A stretch of 64,000 nt of DNA, from positions 1 to 64,000 of the forward strand of contig JAGVAH010000028.1 of NCBI GenBank assembly GCA_020060385.1, given 5' to 3'. The position numbers were made by a program, and so were the translations under genes. Position 1 is the stretch's first letter, and each line of letters opens with the position of its first letter. The stretch comes from Syntrophobacterales bacterium (GTDB taxonomy: Bacteria > Desulfobacterota > Desulfobaccia > Desulfobaccales > 0-14-0-80-60-11). Positions 4,049-17,371 of this stretch are shown here, one piece after another. The notes under the pieces were generated by a model that was given only the letters and a program-made list of their open reading frames with translations, made no database searches and was not told the origin of the DNA.

Positions 4049-4561
4049 TTAATGCAGCGCTTCCAGGCCGGCCTGTTGCTCCCCGGTCAAGATGCAGTCA
4101 ATATCCAGAAGAATCTTGACTCCCCCCGCGATTTTGGCCATGCCTTTGATAAAGCCGGTATGCCCGCCACTTCCGAAATCCGGGGTCCTTTCGATCTCTC
4201 CCCCCTTGATATTGGCCACCTCTTGGACCCCATCCACCACCAGTCCCATGATCATCTGCTGGTTATGGTGCTCGATCTCCACCACAATAATGCAGGTACG
4301 GTCCGTGTAATCCATGGTTTCCAGACCGAATTTCAGCCTGAGGTCCATAACCGGGATGACTTTGCCCCGGAGATTGATGACTCCCTTGATAAATGGGGGC
4401 GTCTGGGGCACGGCCGTAATGGGCATCATGCCGATGATCTCCTTGATTTTGAGAATGCCGATGCCATATTCTTCCTGGTCCAGGGCAAAGGTGAGGTACT
4501 TGCCGGCTTGGTCGACCGACTCTGGGGTTCCCTCCGGGTTAATGGTTTGACGTGCTCCCAT
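4049..4561 (-). CDS. cheW: Chemotaxis coupling protein CheW
   Basis: This is a 170-residue CheW scaffold that links chemoreceptors to the CheA kinase. Recognisable signatures are YLTFALDQEEYGIGILKIKEI, the VPQTPPFIKGVINLRGKVIPVMDLR loop typical of the receptor/CheA contact, and a C-terminal IDCIL end. The length is normal for CheW. It lies 117 bases downstream of a chemoreceptor gene on the same strand, and the pair probably works together. No cheA, cheY, cheR or cheB is in the window, so the rest of the pathway must be elsewhere. Confidence 0.95.
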   Translation of the reverse strand: MGARQTINPEGTPESVDQAGKYLTFALDQEEYGIGILKIKEIIGMMPITAVPQTPPFIKGVINLRGKVIPVMDLRLKFGLETMDYTDRTCIIVVEIEHHNQQMIMGLVVDGVQEVANIKGGEIERTPDFGSGGHTGFIKGMAKIAGGVKILLDIDCILTGEQQAGLEALH

Positions 4562-4678: not shown

Positions 4679-6316
4679 TTAAAAGTCCTTAAAATTGCCT
4701 TCGTCCAAGGGAATGATATGTTCCGGGGATAATTGTTTGCCACCCGTCCCTTTGGCCGCGCCACCCCCGGTCCCCAACAGCTTTACGCCTTGCTGCGGCG
4801 CCTTAACTCTGGAGGTTTTGCCCAGGCTGAACACCTTGCGGCTCAAAGCCACATTGCCCTCATGCATCTGCCCGGATCCATTCTTGCCGCCCACCAGTTT
4901 CACCAAATCCTCCACATAGCCCTTCATCTGCTCTGCCTGGGCGTTCAACTCCTCCGAGGCGCTGGCGCTTTCCTCGGCATTGGCGGCCACCTGCTGGGTC
5001 ACCTGGTTCATCTCGTTGATGGCCTTGTTGATCTGCTCCACACCCTGGGACTGTTCTCCGGAGGCCGCGGAAATCTCCCCCACCAGTTCCTTCATCTTGC
5101 CGGAGCTGGAGGCCACCTGGGAAAAGGCCTCCGCGGTCCGGCCCACCAGTTCCGAGCCTTCCTTCACTTTGCTCACCGTGCCTTCGATGAGATTGGCGGT
5201 ATTCTTGGCTGCGTCGGCCGCCCGCATGGCCAGATTGCGCACCTCGTCGGCCACCACCGCGAAACCGGCCCCCGCTTCCCCGGCCCGGGCCGCCTCCACC
5301 GCCGCGTTCAGGGCCAAGAGATTGGTCTGGAAGGCAATCTCGTCAATGGTCTTGATGATCTTGGCGGTCTCTTCGCTGGCTGCGGATACCTCCTTCATGG
5401 ACTGGATCAATTGGGTCATGGACGCGTTGGCCTGGGTAACCACCTGGCCGGACTCGGTCATCAGGCTGTTGGCTTCGTTGGCGTTACTGGCGTTGGTCTT
5501 GGTCATGGAGGCCATCTCTTCCATGGAGGCGGTGGTCTCCTGTATCGACGCGGCCTGCTCCGAGGCTCCCTGGGCCAGGGATTGGCTGGCGGAAGACACC
5601 TGCACCGCGGCCGAGGAGACCTGCTCCGCGCCCTCATTTAAGCTGGCAATGATGCGATTGATGGGCCGGGTAATGGAGACGCTTAAAATGAGTCCCAGGG
5701 CTAGGGCCACTATGGCGCCAATGATCATAATACCGATGGACAAGGACAGAATCCGGCTGGTCTGGGTCGCCGTGGCCTTTGCTACTTCTTTGGCCCTCTG
5801 CTCGGCCTTGGGCCGGATTTGCTCCAGGATTCCTTGGACGATCCCCAACTCTTTAAGGACATTTCCCTGATAAAAAGCGACGGCTTCAGCCCGGTGCTCC
5901 TTGCCTTTCTTCAGTATGGCCTCCAGCCCCTTGGCGGATTCATGCAGCTTCCGGTGGGGTTCATCCACCTGTTGCAGTAAGCCCTTGATCTCCGGAATTC
6001 CCTCTTCCGCTTTTTTCCGGTCGTCGCTGTAATACCACTTACCGAAGGCGCACTTGTGGGGATCCTTTTGCACGTTTAATTCGGTCATGTTTTCGTCCCG
6101 TTGGAACTGCCCCACCTTGCGGGCCCAATTCAGGTGATCGATCTCCCGGCCCATAATATTGGCGGTGACTGAATCGATGAAATTAACCTCTTCACCACCT
6201 TTTAAGGTTTTATTAATGCCGCTCCACCCCATAAACCCCACAGCTAAGGTAATAAGAGCGACAATCACAAAACCGCCGATTAACTTGGTGCTGAGCCGAA
6301 AATTGTTAAATGACAT
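4679..6316 (-). CDS. Methyl-accepting chemotaxis protein with periplasmic CZB zinc-binding domain
   Basis: This is a 545-residue chemoreceptor. Membrane helices lie near residues 12-32 and 191-216. The segment between carries the chemoreceptor zinc-binding (CZB) pattern: His in DHLNW, Cys in [10 protein letters not shown], and the paired His of EPHRKLHES (about residues 61, 89, 121 and 125). HAMP and the signalling domain follow, with the hairpin tip [35 protein letters not shown]. The start is the ATG at 6316, preceded by a near-perfect AAGGAGG at 7-base spacing; the TTG one codon upstream is less likely. The ligand is probably zinc, or an oxidant acting on a zinc-bound Cys; that is family knowledge, not shown here. 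The C-terminal tail lacks a clear CheR-tether pentapeptide. Confidence 0.93.
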
Positions 6317-6370
6317 CAATCCACCTCCTTATAAAGTATCCACCAATTTGGATTCACTTCCTGAGAGAAT

Positions 6371-7537
6371 TTACAAATTACTTAATGGTATAGTTCCCTT
6401 ATGTCTCAATTTATTCGCAGCAATACCTGGTCTTACCAAAGGGATGGTTATTTCCACACTTGTGCTTAGACCAGGTTCGCGTTTAGTGTTTATAGTCGCA
6501 CCGATTGTACGACTCAAAATATCGACAATATGTGATCCCAAGCAGTTGCCAAAGGGCTGGGTAGTGAATCCTTCCATCATTATTTGCTCCAGGATATCAG
6601 GCCCCATGCCCCGACAATTGTCAGCTATCTTGATTTTGACAGCAGCACCTTCTTTATTTACATAAATATTTAATATCTTTCTTCCCGTGTCGTTTTCTCT
6701 TAAGGCTTGGATTGTATTAAATAAAGTATTGTCAATAATATCATATAAATATTCAGAATATGTTGTGACTATATTATCTTGCCCATAATGCTTATGTATA
6801 TTGATATTCTCATTTTTTATAACATCATGATATTTTTTAATGATGTTATCGACTAAAGTTGCAACATTAATTGGCTCTGGTTGTAATGTTATAGATTCGC
6901 AGACAAAAGCTACTTCTTTAGTTAATTTCATCATCTCATCGATTCCGCCAATAATATTGTCAAATCTTTTTGTCAGCTTACTGTTATTCCCCAATTCCAA
7001 AAGGCCCATGTCGGCATTTCCCACCATTCCCTGCAAGATGTTATTCATCTTATGGGTGATTTTTTTCAATAAAGCTTCATGCTTCGCTTTTAAGTGCTGC
7101 TGTATCTCTTCCAGCGTCTTACTGTTCATCTGCAGCGTTGCGGATCGGTTGGGGGTTTTTTCCAGCAAATTTATGAGAGATTGTTCCACCGTGTGGGCAT
7201 TGAATGGCTTCGGAATAAAATCATGGATGCCGGTCTTAATGGCAGAGATGGCCAGTTCCATATCGCCGTGGGCCGTAATGAGAACTTTCAGGACTGGTAA
7301 ATCCAGGCGCTGCAATTCCTGAAACAAGGCGAGACCGTCCATGCCTGGCAGGCGGTAGTCGCACAGGACGATATCGTAGATTTCCGTCCCCAGGTGGTCC
7401 AGTGCTTGTTCCGCGGTTTCCAGGGCCGTAAAGGCACCGACCTTGTTACGAAAAAAATAGGAGAGGGAGAGACGAATGCTCTGGTCATCATCAACCAACA
7501 AGACCCTTTGGTTTTTTAATATTCCTTTGGCAGTCAT
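6371..7537 (-). CDS. Receiver plus histidine-kinase-like protein, sigma54-controlled
   Basis: This protein of about 388 residues has an N-terminal receiver domain (VLLVDDD, phospho-acceptor Asp in IVLCDYRLPGMDG, conserved Thr in LITAHGD, Lys in IPKPFN). A kinase-like half follows: H-box-like ITHKMNNILQGMVGNADM, N-box-like DNTLFNTIQAL, and an ATP-lid region ADNCRGMG...GLSTSVEITIP. The start is placed at the ATG 7537 with AAAGGA upstream. The in-frame TTG at 7579 lies within the predicted sigma54 promoter and cannot be the start of that transcript. The kinase half (about 6371-7130) is strikingly AT-rich compared with the receiver half and all neighbours. The target of the phosphorelay is unknown. 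Confidence 0.8.
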   Translation of the reverse strand: MTAKGILKNQRVLLVDDDQSIRLSLSYFFRNKVGAFTALETAEQALDHLGTEIYDIVLCDYRLPGMDGLALFQELQRLDLPVLKVLITAHGDMELAISAIKTGIHDFIPKPFNAHTVEQSLINLLEKTPNRSATLQMNSKTLEEIQQHLKAKHEALLKKITHKMNNILQGMVGNADMGLLELGNNSKLTKRFDNIIGGIDEMMKLTKEVAFVCESITLQPEPINVATLVDNIIKKYHDVIKNENINIHKHYGQDNIVTTYSEYLYDIIDNTLFNTIQALRENDTGRKILNIYVNKEGAAVKIKIADNCRGMGPDILEQIMMEGFTTQPFGNCLGSHIVDILSRTIGATINTKREPGLSTSVEITIPLVRPGIAANKLRHKGTIPLSNL

Positions 7538-7570: not shown

Positions 7571-7597
7571 CTCCCCCAATTGCCAGTCCTGTGCCAG
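7571..7597 (-). promoter_or_regulatory. Sigma54 (-24/-12) promoter of the receiver/kinase gene
   Basis: Read on the minus strand, 7596-7581 is TGGCACAGGACTGGCA. It has the invariant GG and GC separated by exactly 10 bases and differs from the TGGCAC-N5-TTGCA consensus at one position. The predicted transcript start is near 7571, giving a leader of about 34 bases with AAAGGA ahead of the ATG at 7537. An NtrC-type activator gene lies immediately upstream. Confidence 0.75.
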
Positions 7598-7678
7598 GAA
7601 CTATAGAAAATATATTGACGTAATATCAGGGAGTTATAAAATTTCAGACAGAAGGGCGCGCCCATCCATTAGCCATAG

Positions 7679-7718
7679 TGGGCCAAATGGCCAACAGTAG
7701 ATTGGCCAAATGGCCAAC
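7679..7718. promoter_or_regulatory. Twin palindromic sites, candidate upstream activating sequence
   Basis: GGCCAAATGGCCAAC occurs twice, at 7681-7695 and 7704-7718, a 23-base offset close to two helical turns. Each copy contains two TGGCCA-type palindromic units. Their centres lie about 115 and 140 bases upstream of the predicted sigma54 transcript start, where activators of this family usually bind. The likely binder is the adjacent NtrC-type protein; this is inference. Confidence 0.6.
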
Positions 7719-7872: not shown

Positions 7873-9261
7873 TCAGGCCAGTTCTTCCAGTTCAGGTAGG
7901 TTCTTGCGCTTGTAACGAAAGCTATAATAACTCATACCCAGGAGGTTGGCGGCCAAGCGGCTATTGCCCCGGGCCTTTTTCAAGGCCTCTTTGATGAAAT
8001 GCCTCTCCAGGGCGGCCAGATCCAGCCCTTCGTCAGGCAGTGGCGGAAAGACGGCCCCGGTGGCGGTCCCGTTAACAGAGGCAGGAGGGGAAGTTTCCAT
8101 GGGGCCCAGATCGGTGAGCTGCAATTGGGGGCCGTCTTCCAGCAGCATGCTCCTTTCGATGATATTTCGCAATTCCCGCACGTTACCTTTCCAAGGATAA
8201 TGTTGCAGCCGGTTTTCCCCTTCCGGGGCGATGCCGGTAAACTCCTTCTGGTATTTGCCACTCAACTCCACCAGAAAGTATTTGGCAATGGGGACAATAT
8301 CTTCGGGGCGTTCATTTAAGGAGGGCACCCGAATTTTGATGACCGCCAGCCGATAATACAGGTCCTCCCGGAAGAGGCCCCTTTCGATCATGGCCCGGAG
8401 ATCCTTGTTAGTGGCGGAGACCACCCGGGTGCGGACCCGGAGTTTCCTGGTCCCCCCCAAACGGTAAAATTCGCCGTTCTCCAGAAAGCGCAGCAGCTTG
8501 GCCTGGGCCTCCAGACTCAGGTCCCCCACCTCATCTAAAAACAGGGTGCCTCCCCCGGCCTGTTCCACCAGACCTTTCTTGCCGTTGGCCGCGGCGCCGC
8601 TAAAGGCCCCCCTTTCATAACCGAACAATTCGCTTTCCAGCAGCTCCCGGGGAATGGCGGCGCAGTTCAAAGTGACAAAGGGCCCCTGGAAGTTGGGACT
8701 CTGATAATGAATGGCGCTGGCCACCAATTCTTTCCCGGTGCCGGATTCCCCCAAAATGATCACCGGGGTGTCCGGGCTTTGGGCCACCCGGGTGACAGTT
8801 TTCATAACATCTTGGATGGCATCGCTCTCCCCGATGAAACAAGGCATATTTTCCCGGAGGCTCCTTTCCTGGAGCGCCTGGATCTCTTTTCTCATCTTGA
8901 TGGTTTTCAGGGCATTCTTGATACTGACCCGCAGCAAATCCAGTTGGATAGGCTTGACGATATAATCATGGGCCCCCATTTTCATGGCCTTGATAACCGT
9001 GTCAATCTCTTCATAAGCGGTAATTATGATTACCAGGACCTCCCGGGAGATCTCCTTGATTTTCCCCAAGGCGTCGATCCCGCTCATGCCGGGCAGGCCG
9101 ATATCCAACAGAATCAAATCCGGTGCAGCTTTCTTAAGAGACCCCAGGGCCTCTTCGGCAGTGGCAAAAGTCTTGACCCGGCAATCCTTCTTCAAGGCAA
9201 AGGACACCCCCAATCTGATACTCTCTTCATCATCCACAATAAAGATGGAAAAAGGTTGCAT
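7873..9261 (-). CDS. NtrC-family sigma54-dependent response regulator
   Basis: This 462-residue protein has a receiver domain (FIVDDEESIR; acceptor Asp in LILLDIGLPGMSG; KPIQ), a sigma54-activating AAA+ ATPase and a Fis-type helix-turn-helix (residues about 415-455, NSRLAANLLGMSYYSFRYKRK). The ATPase has Walker A GESGTGKE, Walker B GGTLFLDEVGD and arginine-finger region REDLYYRL. The sigma54-contacting loop reads GAFSGA instead of the usual GAFTGA. Its start overlaps the stop of the giant kinase gene (TGATG), so the two are translationally coupled and almost certainly a cognate pair. A likely target is the sigma54 promoter just downstream at 7571-7597, which has paired palindromic sites. Confidence 0.93.
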   Translation of the reverse strand: MQPFSIFIVDDEESIRLGVSFALKKDCRVKTFATAEEALGSLKKAAPDLILLDIGLPGMSGIDALGKIKEISREVLVIIITAYEEIDTVIKAMKMGAHDYIVKPIQLDLLRVSIKNALKTIKMRKEIQALQERSLRENMPCFIGESDAIQDVMKTVTRVAQSPDTPVIILGESGTGKELVASAIHYQSPNFQGPFVTLNCAAIPRELLESELFGYERGAFSGAAANGKKGLVEQAGGGTLFLDEVGDLSLEAQAKLLRFLENGEFYRLGGTRKLRVRTRVVSATNKDLRAMIERGLFREDLYYRLAVIKIRVPSLNERPEDIVPIAKYFLVELSGKYQKEFTGIAPEGENRLQHYPWKGNVRELRNIIERSMLLEDGPQLQLTDLGPMETSPPASVNGTATGAVFPPLPDEGLDLAALERHFIKEALKKARGNSRLAANLLGMSYYSFRYKRKNLPELEELA

Positions 9262-12200
9262 CAGGCCGAGCCTCGCTTTCCCCTGGGGAGGCGAATAATA
9301 AACTGGGTGCCTCCCAACTCAGAGGAGGATACCTCTATGTTCCCGCCATGGTCGACAATAATCCTTTGACAGAGGCTCAAGCCGATCCCGGAGCCATCAC
9401 TCTTGGTAGTGAAGAAAGGATCAAAAACCCTATCCCGGATAGCCGGCGGGATCCCCGGTCCGGAATCCTCGATGGTGATGAGGACGGCATCCTGGGCGGC
9501 TTGGGTGGTAATCCGGATGTGACCCGGCTCCCCCGTGCTCCGCAAGGCCTCTGCGGCATTGGTGATCATATTGATGATCGCCTGTTCCAGCAAGGATTGA
9601 TCCGCATGCACCTGGGGCAGGTCTGCGGCCAGGTTGCTGTCAATCCTCACATTTTCTTTTCGTAACTTCGCAGCCGAAAGTTTAATGGCATCATCTACCG
9701 CCAAATTAATGTCTGACCGGGATAGTTTCAATGCCGCGGGCCGGGAAAAGTCCAGCACCCGCTTGATGACTCCTTCAATTTTATTGGACGCGATCTGGGC
9801 GGCATCGATGAGTTCCAGGACATCGCTGGCGTTTTCCGGATCCTGGAAGTTCTCTTTGATGCTTTCCAAAAAGACATTGATCCCGGAAAGGGGATTTCTG
9901 ATTTCATGGGCGATGCCCGCGGCCACCTGACCCAGGGAGGCCATTTTCTCCCTGATGAGCATCAGGAATTCCAGTTCTTTGGTCCGGCTGATGTCCACCA
10001 TGGTGATGAGCGTGGCCTTTTTGCTCCGGTACTCGATGACACTGCTCCGGCAGTTGACCCAGATTAAGGCTTTTTCGGGGGGTGTGGTGCCAAGGGGTTT
10101 CAATCTGAGGGTAATATCGGCCTGGGCGAGATTAGCCGTGATCCCTTGACAAAATTGCTCGGCTTTCCCTAAGTCCTCCGGATGCACGCAGATGAGTAAA
10201 TCGCGGCAACTTTGCAGGGGCAGGTGGCCGAAAAGCCTTTCTTGTTCAGGGTTCTGATAAACCAGGTCGCCATCTTGGATAATCATGATCCCCATGGGCA
10301 CGTTTTCCACCAGGCCCCGGAAACGCCGCTCGCTTTCCTGGATGGCGGCCTCCAATTGCTTCCCCTCGGTAATATCCCAAATCACCCCGTCAATATGGGA
10401 GACTTTGCCGTCTTCCCCGGCAATGGGTTTGCCCCTCTCGGCAAAGTAGCGGATCGATCCGTCCTTATGGCGGAAACGATATTCCACTATAAAGGCCTGA
10501 TCCTTGGCTGTGGCCTGTTTTATCGCCTCCACCACTTTTTCCCTATCTTCGGGTAGAATCATAGGATCCAGGGAACAGACACCATCTGGGGATATTTCCT
10601 GAAGGGTGTATCCCGTCATGGACAACAGCGCATCGTTATAAAACTCCATCCTCAAGTTCTCCCGGAGGAAAACGCGGTAAACCAGCCCCGGCAGGTTTTG
10701 GGCCAGCGTCCGGTAGGAGATTTCGCTTTCCCGGAGTTCTTCTTCCATCCTTTTCCGTTCCGTTATGTCGTCATAGACTCCCAGGACTCCCATGACTGCT
10801 CCATCCGCAGTCAGAAGGGGGATCTTGGTGGCGTCCACCCAAATCTGCTGGCCACCAGCCAATGGGATGGTCTTAATTTTGTTGTAGTCGCCCTGTCTGG
10901 TTTGCATCACCTGCTGGTCTTCGGCCAGGAAGGTTTCGATTTCCTCCTGTTCCCAGGGCAGATCTTGTTCGGTTTTACCCACTATGGCCCCGGGCGTCTC
11001 CAACCCCATAGCTCGGGCGCAATTTAGATTGCAGCCAAGATAGACGGAGTTGAGGTCTTTCCAGAAAATAATCTGGGGCACGGTATTGATGACCAGGGAG
11101 AGCATACTCTCCCGTTCCCGGAGGGCCTCCTCGGACCGCTTTTGCTCGGTGATGTCCCGGCCCACTTCCACTACCCCGGTTATCTGTCCCGAGGCATCAA
11201 TGAGAGGGAAGGTGGACAGATTGATTTGCCTGAGGCCTTCCCGGTCCGCCAGCTCGAAGGGCACAATCTTTTCATTGGGCTGCCCTGTTTCCATTGTCCG
11301 CAGGGCTGAGCAATCCGCGCAAGGCTGATTGGTATGGTGTAGGGCCTCATAACATTTCTTCCCCACCAGGGGCATTTCGTGGGTGGAAGCCCGCTCCCTG
11401 GCGGGATTGACCCGGACAATGTTGAGGTCGCGGTCTAAAATGGTGATATAATCCTGGATGCTGGCGAAGACGCTGGCCAGGAAGCTCTCGCTTTCTTTTA
11501 ACGCCTTCTCAGCCTGTAGGCGCTTGGTAATGTCCGTGTCTGCGCCCCGATAGCCCACCAAGTCGCCCTGTTCATTAAATATGGGCACGCCGCTGGTTAA
11601 TAACCACACCTCCCGACCATCCTTATGGATGTTCCGGTTGATGAATTCCTTAAAAGGCAGTCTTGCCTCAAAGACTTCAAGGGCTTTATGTTTCAGTTCT
11701 TCCTGGTCATCGGGGTGGAAAAATTCATAAAAATCCTGGTTTAAAACTTCCTCCGGCTTATATCCCAGTAGTCTCTCCACCATGGAGCTGCAGTAGGTGT
11801 ATTTTCCCTGGGCGTTCGTTTCCCAGATCCATTCCATGGCATTATCGGCGATATCCCTAAACCTTTGTTCACTATCCCTCAGGGCCTCTTCCATCTGGCG
11901 ACGGGCGGAGATATCCAGGCCCATCCCCACCAAGAAGGGTTTGTCTTCCATGATGACGCGCCGGCCTGTGAAATAATAAGGATTAGTCCTTCCGTCCTTG
12001 GAGACCAACTCCCCCTCAACCCACGTCTCCCCGGCAGCAAAGACAGTTTGTATGGCCTCTTTGATGCGGGCTTTATCTGGGCCGGTAAAGAAATCCAGGG
12101 GATGCATGGCGTCAATCTCCGGGGCTGAGTACTGTGATATTTCCTCCATATTTTTATTCCACCGCGCTATTCTCCCTTCTTCATCAAAAAGGTAAAAAAC

Positions 12201-15200
12201 CCCTGGCAGGCTCTCCATGATGGACAGGGAGAGGTCACGCTCCTGCCGGAGTTCCTCCTCCGCCCTCTTGCGGCCGGTGATGTCGTGGCTCACCACCGCG
12301 GCATAAGCCACGGTTCCGTCTTCATTAAAATAGGGGTTATAGGAAACGTTATAACAACCCAGGCCCCTCTTTCCGAAGGGAAACCACCCCTCGAATTCCA
12401 CCGCCTGGCCCTCAAAGCATTGGTCCAGATGGCCTTTGATGATTCTTTCAAAGGTGTCTTGCCCCCAGATGTCCGCCACACTGGTTCCCACCACTTCTTC
12501 CCGGGTCTTGCCGTGGGCCTGGCAATAGGCGGCGTTGGCCGCTTCATAATGGTAATTGGGGTCTATCAAGGTCATGCAGTCTTTGGCGGTGTTGGCGATG
12601 AACTCATACTTGAGCAAAGCCTCTTCCGCCTTTTTGCGCCCGGTAATGTCAAAAATTACCCCGCTGATATAGTCAATCCTGCCGTTGGCATCCAGGAAGA
12701 TACGGCCCTGGACCTGGACCCAGATAATCTCCCCGGATTTTTTGCGGATGCGGTATTCCCTTTCATAGGTGCCAGTGGCCTTCAGGCCCTCGAGAAATTT
12801 GCCCTTAGCCTGGGGGAGGTCCTCTGCCAGGATCAGATCGGACCATTTCAGGCGGCGGGTGTCGAAATCTTCCTTGGGGTAGCCGGTTAACGTTTCAATT
12901 TTTCGGGCATCAAAAGTATCTATGCTCCAATCCGCGTAACCCCGGAAGACCACCGCCGGGATCTGGCTGACCAACAAGCGGTACTTTTCTTCGCTCTCCC
13001 GGAGGGCCTGTTCCGCGGCCTTGCGGTGGGAAATATCCCGGCACACGCAGAATACCAGCTTCTGCCCCCCCAAGACGACGCCATTGGCACTGATTTCCAC
13101 GTCGAAAACGGTGCCGTCCCGGCGACGGTGGCGGGTCTCGAAATGATCCCCGGTTTCATCGACGGTTCGCAGTATTTCCAATAATTCTTCCCGGTTCCAT
13201 TGCACGTCCCAATCCCAGATGTATAGCTGGCGGACTTCCTCGGTGGAATATCCCAACATCTGGACATAACTTTGGTTGGCCTCGTAGACCTTGCCGGTTT
13301 CATCCAGGACCACGATCCCGTCCCTCGACTGCTCCACCAGGATGCGCCTGCGGATGGCTTCCTCCGCCAGGGCCTCCTCCGCCTGCATACGCGCGGTGAT
13401 ATCTTCATATACTCCCAGGACCCCAAAGACCTCACCATTGGGCCGCCGCAACGGCACTTTGCTGGTATTCAGCCAGATCTTGCCCCCTTCGGGAGTGGTT
13501 TGCGGCTCGATAATGTTCATTTTGGGGAGACCGGACTCCATGACCTGGCGGTCATCCGCCCGGTAAAGCTCCGCCTGTTCCCTCCACCCCAGGGCAAAGT
13601 CGTCCAGGCCCAGAAGCTGGTCTGGGCGGCTCAAGCCGGCATCGCCCGCGAAAAGGGTATTGCAGCCCAAGTAACGGGAATCCTTGTCCTTCCAAAAAAC
13701 CCTGACAGGGATCGATTCCATTATCAGATGCAGCATATTCCTGGATTGCTCAAGCCGCTGGGCGGTTTCCTGCAGCTCCTGGTGACTCTTGGATAATGCC
13801 TCCTCCGCTAGTTTGCGCTCAGTGATATCTTGCACCACCTCTATGAATCCGGTAATCTCGCCATCGGCGCCGAAACTCGGGAAGGCATGATTGTGTACTA
13901 TAAAAGTAGTCCCGTCATCCCGGACGCCCTCAGTTACAGCCTCGGCCAGCTTACCGGTGGCCATCGCGATTCTCCCCGGGCAGTGTGGGCATACGGCATT
14001 TCGTTTTTCAAATTCCCGGAAACACTCCTTACCAATAAGTTCACTGGCAGGTTTGTCAAATTTTTTTCCAAGCGCCTTATTCACCATTTTTATCCGGTAG
14101 TCTGAGCCTATCAAAGTTATGCCCAGATCAATGTTCTCCACCAGGGATCGGTAGCGTTCCTCACTTACGCGCAACGCCTCCTCCGCCTGCTTGCGGGCGG
14201 TAATGTCGATGTGGCAGCCCATCATACGATAGGGCTTTCCTGCAGCGTCCTTGATGACCGCCCCCCGGGCGTTGATCCAGCGATACGTGCCGTCTTTGTG
14301 TCGCAGTCGGAACTCGATATCATATTCCGGCGAACGGTCGTTAAAGTATGCCTGCAAAGCGGCCAGGGCGGTTTCCCGGTCGTCGGGATGCAGGCGCAAC
14401 TCCCATTCTTCGTAACGATGTGAGATTTCGTGATCCGCGTAGCCTAAATGGCCTTTCCATTCCGGCGAGAAATAGACCTGATCCGTGCGCAGGTCCCAGT
14501 CCCAGAGGCCGGTGTTGGACCCTTGAAGGGCCAGCCGCAGCCGTTCTTGGGCTTCCCGCAACGCCTCCTCCGCCTCCTTGCGGGCGGTGATATCCCGGTG
14601 GATAGCCAGGAAGCCCATGGTCTCCCCCTGCTTATCCTTGACCAGGGTGCCCAGGGTTTCACAAGTGACGCGGCTGCCATCCTTGCGCTGGTATTGCCTT
14701 TCAAAGATCGGTTGCCGGGTCTGGGCCCCCACATGGTAGCGGGATTTTCCCAACTCCTCGTATTCGGCCTTGCTGGGGTAAAGAAACTCGGTAGTCTGGC
14801 CGATGATCTCTTCCAGGCTCCAGCCGAACATATCCAGGAAGGCCGGGTTGGCCATGACCACGCGGCGCTGGGTATCCGTGAAGACCGCGCCGTCGCTGAT
14901 GGCATTGAAAATGGCTTCAAACTCCAGGTTCTTGCGGGCCAGATCCTCTTTCACCTGGGTTCGTTCAGTGATGTCCCGAATGTATTCAATTACCCCGGTG
15001 ACTTGTCCCGTGGCCAGGTCCTGTAAAGGGTAGGCAAAGGTCTCCACCCAGTTCGTTCTTCCCTCCCATTCGATCTTTTTTAGTAGATAACCCGTCTTTC
15101 CCGTCTCCATGGCCTCGCGGCAGGGACACTCTTCGCAAGGTTGGGAAAGGCCGTGGCGGAGTTCATAACACTTCCGGCCCACCATGGGCAGGTCGTGACG

Positions 15201-16400
15201 AAATTGATGTTCCTCGGAGGGGTTCACCCGGAGGATGGTGAAATCCCGGTCCATGATGACGATGCCGTCCTGGATGCTGTCGAAGACACTGGCTAAAAAG
15301 TTCTCCCCCTCCTTTAGGGCGGCGTTGGCTTCTTCTACCTCCCTGAGCCGGGCCTGAATGGCGGCCAGCATCACCTCCATGGCCTGGGATAGGGTTTCTA
15401 CTTCGTTGCCCCCCCGGCTTACGGTGACGTCTTCGTTGGAGAATTCCTTGATCACGCTCAAGGCCCGTTCTTGCAGCAGGCGCAAAGGTCTGACAATGGA
15501 GAAGGTCAGCCCGGAACCGACGCCGATAATGCCCAGGACCACCCCGAAAAAGCTCAGGAAGAGTTGCCTTTTCTTCTGCTCTAACAGGTCTTGGATGGGG
15601 GAGGTGTCGGTATTGACGACTAGACAGACGGTCTCATCGCCGATGTCCAGGGGTATTTGGAAAGAACTGGTGTTTGCCTGGGTATCAATGTGAAAAAAAG
15701 ACCTTTTTTCATCCAGGCTGCGGGCGACCCAGGGCAGGCCCACTTTCTGGCGCTGGCCTGGCGGCCAGGAACTGGCAAGGACCTGGTAGGGCGTGCTAAA
15801 AGAAATATTGGTATGGGTAGCCGCGGCGATATTCCGGGCAAAGGCGTCATCCAGGAAGATGCCCAGGATCAGGACTCCATATTGCTTTGTTTCCCGGGAG
15901 AGGGGCGTCAGGCTGCGGATGGCCCAACCCGTGGGACCATAGCCGGTTGCCAGGATGGTTTCTCCCGCTAAAGCCTCCTCCAAGCCCCAGCCCATAGAGA
16001 TGTTGCCGCCATGTTCCGGGTCATAGGCCTGATAAACTGTCTTGCCCTGACTGTCGGTCACCGCCACGAAATCGATCCCCATGGGGGCCAGGGTGGTGTA
16101 TAAAGAATCGACGGTCTCCTGTAACGGTTTTACTTCGCCCTGCGCCTGGTATTGGCTGAGGCTGTCCAACAATTTGTCGTTTTGCTTTAATAGCTGCGAT
16201 AATGTGGATAGGCTTTTAATTGTTTTTTGAATATCAGCATTTACCCAATAAGTTATGTCACGAGCCTCACTGGCCTCCCTGGCTTCCATAGTTTCCCGCA
16301 TGGTGCCCGCGTTTAAGTAAAAGCCGATAAAAAGAGTACTACCTGCAACTATGATGAGAATAGAAATGATGAGATATAAGAGGCTATATTTGAATCGCAT
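9261..16400 (-). CDS. Giant membrane histidine kinase with 14 PAS domains
   Basis: This is a 2,379-residue sensor kinase. A helix near residues 7-27, a periplasmic Cache-like sensor, a second helix near 278-300 and HAMP precede a chain of 14 PAS/PAC modules, most ending in DITERK/DITARK-type linkers. The end is HisKA (phospho-acceptor His in GIAHEIRNPL, about residue 2163) and HATPase (N-box ITNAAEAL, DSGPGI, GSGIGLSLC). PAS 1, 4 and 11 carry a Cys-x(10-11)-Cys-x2-Cys motif. PAS 1/11 and 5/12 look like internal duplicates. The gene starts 3 bases after the stop of a secreted binding-protein gene and overlaps its response regulator. It probably integrates a periplasmic ligand with several cytoplasmic cues; the ligands are unknown. 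Confidence 0.93.
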   Translation of the reverse strand: MRFKYSLLYLIISILIIVAGSTLFIGFYLNAGTMRETMEAREASEARDITYWVNADIQKTIKSLSTLSQLLKQNDKLLDSLSQYQAQGEVKPLQETVDSLYTTLAPMGIDFVAVTDSQGKTVYQAYDPEHGGNISMGWGLEEALAGETILATGYGPTGWAIRSLTPLSRETKQYGVLILGIFLDDAFARNIAAATHTNISFSTPYQVLASSWPPGQRQKVGLPWVARSLDEKRSFFHIDTQANTSSFQIPLDIGDETVCLVVNTDTSPIQDLLEQKKRQLFLSFFGVVLGIIGVGSGLTFSIVRPLRLLQERALSVIKEFSNEDVTVSRGGNEVETLSQAMEVMLAAIQARLREVEEANAALKEGENFLASVFDSIQDGIVIMDRDFTILRVNPSEEHQFRHDLPMVGRKCYELRHGLSQPCEECPCREAMETGKTGYLLKKIEWEGRTNWVETFAYPLQDLATGQVTGVIEYIRDITERTQVKEDLARKNLEFEAIFNAISDGAVFTDTQRRVVMANPAFLDMFGWSLEEIIGQTTEFLYPSKAEYEELGKSRYHVGAQTRQPIFERQYQRKDGSRVTCETLGTLVKDKQGETMGFLAIHRDITARKEAEEALREAQERLRLALQGSNTGLWDWDLRTDQVYFSPEWKGHLGYADHEISHRYEEWELRLHPDDRETALAALQAYFNDRSPEYDIEFRLRHKDGTYRWINARGAVIKDAAGKPYRMMGCHIDITARKQAEEALRVSEERYRSLVENIDLGITLIGSDYRIKMVNKALGKKFDKPASELIGKECFREFEKRNAVCPHCPGRIAMATGKLAEAVTEGVRDDGTTFIVHNHAFPSFGADGEITGFIEVVQDITERKLAEEALSKSHQELQETAQRLEQSRNMLHLIMESIPVRVFWKDKDSRYLGCNTLFAGDAGLSRPDQLLGLDDFALGWREQAELYRADDRQVMESGLPKMNIIEPQTTPEGGKIWLNTSKVPLRRPNGEVFGVLGVYEDITARMQAEEALAEEAIRRRILVEQSRDGIVVLDETGKVYEANQSYVQMLGYSTEEVRQLYIWDWDVQWNREELLEILRTVDETGDHFETRHRRRDGTVFDVEISANGVVLGGQKLVFCVCRDISHRKAAEQALRESEEKYRLLVSQIPAVVFRGYADWSIDTFDARKIETLTGYPKEDFDTRRLKWSDLILAEDLPQAKGKFLEGLKATGTYEREYRIRKKSGEIIWVQVQGRIFLDANGRIDYISGVIFDITGRKKAEEALLKYEFIANTAKDCMTLIDPNYHYEAANAAYCQAHGKTREEVVGTSVADIWGQDTFERIIKGHLDQCFEGQAVEFEGWFPFGKRGLGCYNVSYNPYFNEDGTVAYAAVVSHDITGRKRAEEELRQERDLSLSIMESLPGVFYLFDEEGRIARWNKNMEEISQYSAPEIDAMHPLDFFTGPDKARIKEAIQTVFAAGETWVEGELVSKDGRTNPYYFTGRRVIMEDKPFLVGMGLDISARRQMEEALRDSEQRFRDIADNAMEWIWETNAQGKYTYCSSMVERLLGYKPEEVLNQDFYEFFHPDDQEELKHKALEVFEARLPFKEFINRNIHKDGREVWLLTSGVPIFNEQGDLVGYRGADTDITKRLQAEKALKESESFLASVFASIQDYITILDRDLNIVRVNPARERASTHEMPLVGKKCYEALHHTNQPCADCSALRTMETGQPNEKIVPFELADREGLRQINLSTFPLIDASGQITGVVEVGRDITEQKRSEEALRERESMLSLVINTVPQIIFWKDLNSVYLGCNLNCARAMGLETPGAIVGKTEQDLPWEQEEIETFLAEDQQVMQTRQGDYNKIKTIPLAGGQQIWVDATKIPLLTADGAVMGVLGVYDDITERKRMEEELRESEISYRTLAQNLPGLVYRVFLRENLRMEFYNDALLSMTGYTLQEISPDGVCSLDPMILPEDREKVVEAIKQATAKDQAFIVEYRFRHKDGSIRYFAERGKPIAGEDGKVSHIDGVIWDITEGKQLEAAIQESERRFRGLVENVPMGIMIIQDGDLVYQNPEQERLFGHLPLQSCRDLLICVHPEDLGKAEQFCQGITANLAQADITLRLKPLGTTPPEKALIWVNCRSSVIEYRSKKATLITMVDISRTKELEFLMLIREKMASLGQVAAGIAHEIRNPLSGINVFLESIKENFQDPENASDVLELIDAAQIASNKIEGVIKRVLDFSRPAALKLSRSDINLAVDDAIKLSAAKLRKENVRIDSNLAADLPQVHADQSLLEQAIINMITNAAEALRSTGEPGHIRITTQAAQDAVLITIEDSGPGIPPAIRDRVFDPFFTTKSDGSGIGLSLCQRIIVDHGGNIEVSSSELGGTQFIIRLPRGKRGSA

Positions 16401-16403
16401 AGC

Positions 16404-17267
16404 TTATTCCTTCTCAGCTGGTATTACGCCATATTGTTCCATGAGCTGCTGACATTCTTTGGAAAAAATGAAATCAAGGAAGAGCCTGGCCAAGTTATTT
16501 AATCGCCCTTCTTTGTATACCAGGGCGTAGGGCCCGAGCAGCTTGTATTTATGGGACCGGGCATTTTCCGGAGTGGGGGCGATGCCGTCCAGGGCCAAAG
16601 GATAAACGGGAGTTCGAGCCCCTTTCAGGGCGCTGAAGGTGAGCCAGCCGATGGAATATTTATATTTCTGTAACATCTCCAACATGTTGAAGTCAGTATG
16701 AGTCACCTTGGCGCTCGGGGGAAAGGTAATATTCCGAAATGCCGGCTGATGTTCCTGGATTATCTTCAAACTGGAATCCCCGGGCTGCCGCGCCAACACC
16801 CGGATGGGGCCGGGGTCGCCCCCCAACTCCCGCCAGTCGGTAATCTTGCCCGCGTACACATCTATCAGCTGGGCGCTAGTCAGATTTTTGACCGTCACCT
16901 TGGCGCCCACGGCAAAGATGATCATATCCTGGGCAAAGATCAGATATTTTAGCCCTTCGCTTGTCTGATCCCCTTGCCGAGACTGGGCCACCCTGGCCAG
17001 CAGGGCCTGGTCCTGGCGCACGGCCCGGATGCCGCCGGCGGTGCCCACACTGGCGGGGATTAAAACCTGCTGCCCCGGATATTTGGCGGCAAAAGCCTGC
17101 GCTATGGCCCGGAGCAGCACTTGGCAGGCCCCGGTGCCGGGAATTTCCAGCATGTCCGCCCCGACCGCGACTGGGGAAAAGGCCAGGAACAGGAAAAATG
17201 CTAAGAGGAGACAGGCCGATAGACCGAAAACTTTCCTAACCATCGCCATCATCGTTCCCGAGTGCAT
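16404..17267 (-). CDS. Secreted PstS-like solute-binding protein, probable kinase partner
   Basis: This is a periplasmic binding protein of about 287 residues. The start is placed at the ATG 17267, with AGAGGA upstream; a longer frame to 17360 would run through a possible sigma54 promoter and has no signal. A signal peptide (basic start, LSACLLLAFFLFLAF core, cleavage near VGA/D) precedes a PBP-like fold related to phosphate/tungstate binders: a GTGA-type N-terminal ligand loop, then KNLTSAQLIDVYAGKITDW, which is typical of PstS relatives. No permease or ATPase genes follow; the kinase gene starts 3 bases later. Its job is therefore more likely to present a ligand to the kinase than to feed a transporter. 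Phosphate is only one candidate. Confidence 0.82.
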   Translation of the reverse strand: MHSGTMMAMVRKVFGLSACLLLAFFLFLAFSPVAVGADMLEIPGTGACQVLLRAIAQAFAAKYPGQQVLIPASVGTAGGIRAVRQDQALLARVAQSRQGDQTSEGLKYLIFAQDMIIFAVGAKVTVKNLTSAQLIDVYAGKITDWRELGGDPGPIRVLARQPGDSSLKIIQEHQPAFRNITFPPSAKVTHTDFNMLEMLQKYKYSIGWLTFSALKGARTPVYPLALDGIAPTPENARSHKYKLLGPYALVYKEGRLNNLARLFLDFIFSKECQQLMEQYGVIPAEKE

Positions 17268-17345
17268 AAAATTTTTCCTCTGGCTGGGAAGGGAGTGATG
17301 AAAATTTACAATATGATACGATAAATATCGGCATTTCTGCCAATA

Positions 17346-17371
17346 TTCTAAGAAAGGCAATTTCTAGACCA
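17346..17371 (-). promoter_or_regulatory. Candidate sigma54 promoter for the binding protein-kinase-regulator operon
   Basis: On the minus strand 17371-17356 reads TGGTCTAGAAATTGCC. GG and GC are 10 bases apart and the -12 box is the canonical TTGC, but the -24 box keeps only TGG. The transcript start would be near 17346, about 79 bases ahead of the chosen ATG. This would allow the encoded NtrC-type regulator to control its own operon. Confidence 0.38.

Follow-up and report, generated by a model that had tools for sequence, protein, structure and literature searches.

A probable sigma54 promoter with paired palindromic activator sites beside an NtrC-type regulator gene in a Syntrophobacterales bacterium

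Results

Genes and features of the locus

The locus lies in a 64,000-nucleotide stretch of a Syntrophobacterales genome, hereafter the window, and all its features are on the minus strand (Table 1). The C-terminal part of the large sensor kinase has a homologue at the equivalent place in the sister species G006 (46% over 909 aa). Many repeated PAS-like modules can be named in the kinase from reading its sequence; it is 956 aa long in the sister species versus 2379 aa here, so that modules have been gained or lost. Directly upstream of the kinase gene is a gene for a PstS-like substrate-binding protein (16404-17360), also named from its sequence, which may be part of the sensing side.

The neighbouring activator has three domains, each scoring above its curated Pfam cut-off, and is thus an NtrC-type bacterial enhancer-binding protein (EBP). 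Scored against NtrC, AtoC, ZraR and other named equivalogs, it stayed below the curated cut-offs, the best scores being 408 of 714 bits for AtoC and 405 of 558.6 for NtrC. Its AAA+ loop reads GAFSGA, and the recognition helix of its Fis-type HTH, as read from the sequence, is MSYYSFRY. The 335 nt between the activator gene and the receiver/kinase gene hold two palindromes and a putative promoter. The receiver/kinase gene begins with an ATG behind an AAAGGA ribosome site, and the chemoreceptor gene starts after a further 51-nt gap.

Table 1. Features of the locus in window coordinates
Feature	Position	Strand	Basis
Sensor histidine kinase of 2379 aa with multiple PAS modules; presumed activator partner	9261..16400	minus	ORF; sister-species homologue
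NtrC-type sigma54 activator (receiver, AAA+, Fis-type HTH)	7873..9261	minus	Pfam Response_reg, Sigma54_activat, HTH_8
Distal activator site (predicted), perfect palindrome TTGGCCATTTGGCCAA	7702..7717	minus	sequence; conserved in sister species
Proximal activator site (predicted), TTGGCCATTTGGCCCA, one mismatch	7679..7694	minus	sequence; conserved in sister species
Spacer between activator sites and promoter	7598..7678	minus	three-way alignment
Predicted sigma54 -24/-12 promoter TGGCACAGGACTGGCA	7581..7596	minus	consensus match; conserved core
Predicted transcription start	~7570	minus	12 nt past the C of the -12 GC
Receiver/kinase gene (predicted target), 388 aa (receiver, H-box stretch, HATPase)	6371..7537	minus	Pfam Response_reg, HATPase_c; H-box by eye
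Methyl-accepting chemotaxis protein, CZB-containing; probably on the same transcript	4679..6319	minus	Pfam
CheW, possibly on the same transcript	4049..4561	minus	Pfam

Promoter and paired palindromes

The promoter word TGGCACAGGACTGGCA has the correct GG-N10-GC spacing and matches TGGCACN5TTGCA at 10 of the 11 scored positions, the -12 box reading TGGCA instead of TTGCA; promoter scores were obtained with a weight table based on the sigma54 consensus. From the predicted start the leader to the ATG would be 33 nt long, and a TTG at 7579 sits upstream of that start. The host genome has rpoN (one Sigma54_DBD match, 204 bits). Sigma54-like words with at most 2 mismatches are as frequent in the window as in shuffled sequence (57 versus 60.9), and the promoter word by itself therefore proves nothing. 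Exact matches to TGGCAYN5TKGCA number 6 in the 4.15 Mb genome, against 2 for a reversed control.

The earlier note had described two copies of the 15-mer GGCCAAATGGCCAAC upstream of this promoter. They are present where it placed them, at 7681-7695 and 7704-7718, 23 bp from start to start, although the unit is better drawn as a 16-bp palindrome, TTGGCCA-NN-TGGCCAA, than as a 15-mer. Measured from the predicted start, the palindrome centres are ~140 and ~117 bp upstream. No other palindrome with 0 or 1 mismatch occurs in the 4.15 Mb genome. Allowing up to 3 mismatches, the window contains 5 copies of the 15-mer where chance predicts 4.7, and we rejected both these near copies and the matches to the promoter word as evidence. 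Since match counts alone are unconvincing, conservation between species becomes the decisive support. In the spacer, an AATATAT stretch is partly retained in two relatives in a three-way alignment, and the spacer may serve as a bend or loop.

Conservation in the sister species

At an E-value of 1e-120 the activator was found in 2 of the 22 genomes of the family, the second being G006, whose activator is 80% identical to that of the window. When the gaps behind the two activator genes are aligned, the palindromes keep 28 of 32 letters and the promoter core 16 of 18 (44 of 50 together), against 137 of 285 in the rest (Fisher p 4e-8). The 23-bp spacing of the palindromes is also preserved, and so is the ATG at 7537, in agreement with the earlier proposal to move the start of the receiver/kinase gene there. 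The proposed sigma54 promoter and the two spaced palindromes also gain support from this alignment. A CheW homologue with 67% identity follows the receiver gene in G006 as well; no chemoreceptor homologue was found at the G006 locus.

The G006 target protein (L040:6124-6789) consists of a receiver plus H-box stretch, with no HATPase domain, and could be either a truncated gene or a phosphotransfer protein.

Recurrence across the phylum

Activators of the same clade were present in 42 of 395 genomes at an E-value of 1e-125. We compared 56 loci, namely 54 fetched ones, G006 and the window, after dropping one partial match (G230:C181) of the 55 found outside the window. Among the 52 loci with enough sequence, which are related and so do not give independent counts, 22 show a sigma54 site scoring 13.5 bits or more within 360 nt past the activator stop, compared with 0 of 52 on the opposite strand and 21 of 2828 in other stretches of the same loci.

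Palindromic repeats were then scanned at lags of 17-44 in 36 loci, those whose sigma54 site scored 10.5 bits or more (the promoter search range of L171 was set by hand); the other 20 of the 56 had no promoter at this threshold. The best lag was 21-23 in 25 of the 36 promoters, against 15.7% in shuffles and 15.9% in other stretches; a first scan, which used a shorter stretch for some loci, had given fewer (21 of 36). In 24 of the 25 loci with this lag, a distance of 87-110 nt separates the start of the proximal site from the -24 box downstream. The paired-site geometry stays constant while the operator letters change.

A receiver gene comes next after the activator in 17 of the 36 loci with a promoter versus 1 of the 20 without, some loci ending within 500 nt. 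This downstream receiver mostly stands alone; in the window it is fused to an H-box stretch and a HATPase domain. The loop reads GAFTGA in 17 of the 56 activator homologues and GAFSGA in the window.

In six loci of one family (f7: L192, L197, L200, L203, L205, L206), ~150-270 nt without a clear gene follow the sigma54 promoter, possibly a small RNA or a long leader.

Operator sequence and recognition helix

Where the recognition helix of the neighbouring activator differs, the operator letters tend to differ with it. Six loci of five families (the window, L040, L163, L164, L167 and L171) encode a helix in which SYY or TYY precedes FRY or YRY, and each of them has GGCCATTTGGCC-like sites. Loci with an NHH-FRY helix mostly have TTCG-A sites, with several poor fits such as L194 and L179; two RD-FRY loci from two families have GGGG sites, and the NYY- or NYH-RH loci, also from two families, have TGTGCA or TGCGCA sites. 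Between families, the best shared operator letters averaged 12.80 of 16 within a helix class versus 10.94 otherwise, with classes named after the operators seen and L190 left as 'other'. This difference was reached in 0 of 5000 block shuffles; a control on the stretch between operator and promoter gave no signal (1389 of 5000).

Because the classes had been defined post hoc, the test was redone with plain helix identity. Operator similarity between families correlated with helix identity at a rho of 0.386, and of 0.385 when allowing for the rest of the protein, a value reached in 0 of 2000 permutations, whereas the control stretch gave a rho of -0.07. The earlier note had connected the palindromes with the neighbouring NtrC-type gene, and this covariation, absent from the adjacent stretch, strengthens that connection; of all the findings it speaks most strongly, if indirectly, for binding of the palindromes by the neighbouring activator, which is very probable.

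Reverse search and possible regulon

Searching the 395 genomes for the site followed by a sigma54 core at 65-92 nt gave 6 matches in 5 genomes, and 0 with a reversed pattern. Four of the 6 sit behind activators with the SYY/TYY helix. A new match in G159 precedes a paralogue 68% identical to the gene behind the first site of that genome, which makes the paralogue a predicted second target of the site. In G003, of the same genus as the window and 98% complete, a perfect site pair 23 bp apart is followed by a promoter alignable to that of the window, and no activator with a matching DNA-binding domain was found in the assembly (best E-value 0.002). The G003 activator may have been lost or be absent from the assembly, or another protein may bind such sites; the case counts against a simple activator-operator picture. 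The G003 pair (L282:9943-10193) precedes an asparagine-synthase-like gene that adjoins glycosyltransferase-like genes.

Within the genome of the window, palindromes with at most 2 mismatches number 43, against 29 for a reversed control. Forty-one of the 43 lie outside the locus, and for 3 of them a sigma54-like site scoring at least 12 bits is present within 300 nt (C16:168919, C57:34000 and C125:14830), with ~0.8 expected from the background of the clade comparison, and all three are single weak sites for which we claim no regulation. Thus, the genome-wide search near -24/-12 promoters that the earlier note had suggested gave no second strong target among these 41, and for this reason the site seems to act locally and not to govern a large regulon. 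For the target protein, matches in the named genomes were confined to the shared receiver domain.

Discussion

The layout, the conservation, the fixed geometry and the link between helix and operator can be read directly from the sequence, and the circuit proposed here is a local one. We estimate a probability of about 0.86 that the activator binds both palindromes, fires the promoter at 7596-7581 and drives the receiver/kinase gene. The sensor kinase would phosphorylate the activator, which would then bind as dimers to the two TTGGCCA-NN-TGGCCAA palindromes, form an AAA+ ring and loop to the sigma54 polymerase at the promoter. Transcription would begin at the predicted start and probably continue through the chemoreceptor and CheW genes. 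By this route a two-component pair would switch on a further signalling protein next door, whose receiver may have a feedback or phosphate-sink role. Weighing against this account are the departure of the -12 box from TTGCA, the 20 of 56 loci in which no promoter reached the threshold, the occurrence of the receiver in no more than 17 of 36 loci, and the G003 case.

Some of the evidence could be taken to mean that the promoter is real and that a different regulator, another activator or a repressor, binds the palindromes, the neighbouring activator working elsewhere. The genome of the window has 29 sigma54-activator matches, and in G003 the site pair and the promoter occur although no orthologous activator could be recognised. 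However, a helix of the MSYYSFRY type was found in 0 of the 22 other parsed activators, and a regular-expression look found none in the 6 of the 29 that were unparsed. Moreover, it is the recognition helix of the adjacent activator with which the operators covary between families, so we regard binding by another regulator as unlikely.

That covariation also bears on whether the palindromes act in RNA, as a terminator or a processed hairpin at the end of the activator transcript. The two palindromes are able to pair with each other and the read-through RNA is more stable than shuffles (z -2.37), but no terminator-like site was found at the palindromes, a terminator is not expected to change with a recognition helix, and the distance to the promoter and the 21-23 bp spacing stay fixed across differing sequences. 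We therefore rejected the RNA reading, to which we give very little credence. Equally improbable, in our opinion, is that the promoter-like word arose by chance and that transcription of the target gene comes from the activator operon or a sigma70 promoter. A weak sigma70-like site (9/12) does lie at 7629-7600 and sigma54-like words are at chance level in the window; against this stand the conservation of the promoter core in both G006 and G003 and the excess of sigma54 sites past the activator over other stretches. The word at 7581-7596 is thus very probably a sigma54 promoter fired by the adjacent activator.

It is tempting to extend this picture to the whole clade, whose code-bearing activators would be spread over many families of the phylum. 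Under a simple code, a few helix residues would dictate the half-site of the operator (SYY-FRY with GGCCA, NHH-FRY with TTCG-A, RD-FRY with GGGG, NYY/NYH-RH with TGTGCA or TGCGCA). The frame itself would be invariant, the two palindromes being spaced by 21-23 bp and sitting ~100 bp behind the promoter. The circuit would most often drive a stand-alone receiver feeding back on the same kinase, and in the genus of the window this three-part circuit would have expanded to include a receiver-kinase linked with a chemosensory operon. We offer this broader reading tentatively, judging its chances as a whole to be slightly below even.

For an uncharacterised regulator, these results provide a concrete and testable prediction of operator, target and start site. 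With about 30 naturally occurring pairs of activator and operator that share a fixed frame, the wider set is suited to studying how Fis-type activators read DNA. It also suggests a circuit type that recurs, with a two-component pair switching on an additional receiver. In the text covered by the literature search we found no description of this operator, of its fixed pairing and geometry, of the link between helix and operator, or of a receiver gene as a frequent target.

An adjacent target as such is not special, and we dropped it as a distinguishing feature: 6 of the 22 other parsed activators in the genome have a sigma54 site of at least 12 bits within 360 nt downstream. Two palindromic sites ~110-140 bp upstream of a sigma54 promoter also occur at glnAp2, a target of NtrC, with wider spacing and another operator sequence; the locus in the window shares the paired layout with that system, and its activator scores below the NtrC cut-off. 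According to the parts of the Desulfovibrio vulgaris studies covered here, EBP genes are co-localised with their sigma54 targets (PMC4641369; PMC3333781), regulons are mostly small, of one to four operons, sites are palindromic, and GAFSGA is among the loop variants accepted as functional (PMC4641369). The window shares all four features, an adjacent predicted sigma54 target, an apparently small regulon, palindromic sites and the GAFSGA loop. One of the 33 motifs reported there may coincide with the operator of the window, and the covered text of the two papers does not describe a conserved 21-23 bp pairing or a link between helix and operator (PMC4641369, PMC3333781); it does report that motif similarity between EBPs does not always track similarity of their DNA-binding domains (PMC4641369).

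Similar by description, in the parts covered, is the DVU3305/DVU3304/DVU3303 system, in which an NtrC-type activator with GAFSGA occurs together with a kinase and controls a second response regulator (PMC3333781; PMC4641369). There, however, the second regulator lies with a lon protease inside the activator's own operon (PMC3333781), while at the loci compared here it is, where present, a receiver with or without kinase domains that has its own predicted promoter downstream of the activator gene. In the covered part of PMC12316311, the classes of genes with sigma54 promoters, Desulfobacteria included, comprise histidine kinases and CheY-like receivers. In summary, the arrangement of activator, operator and sigma54 promoter is of an already known kind, and this locus is a well-supported case of it.
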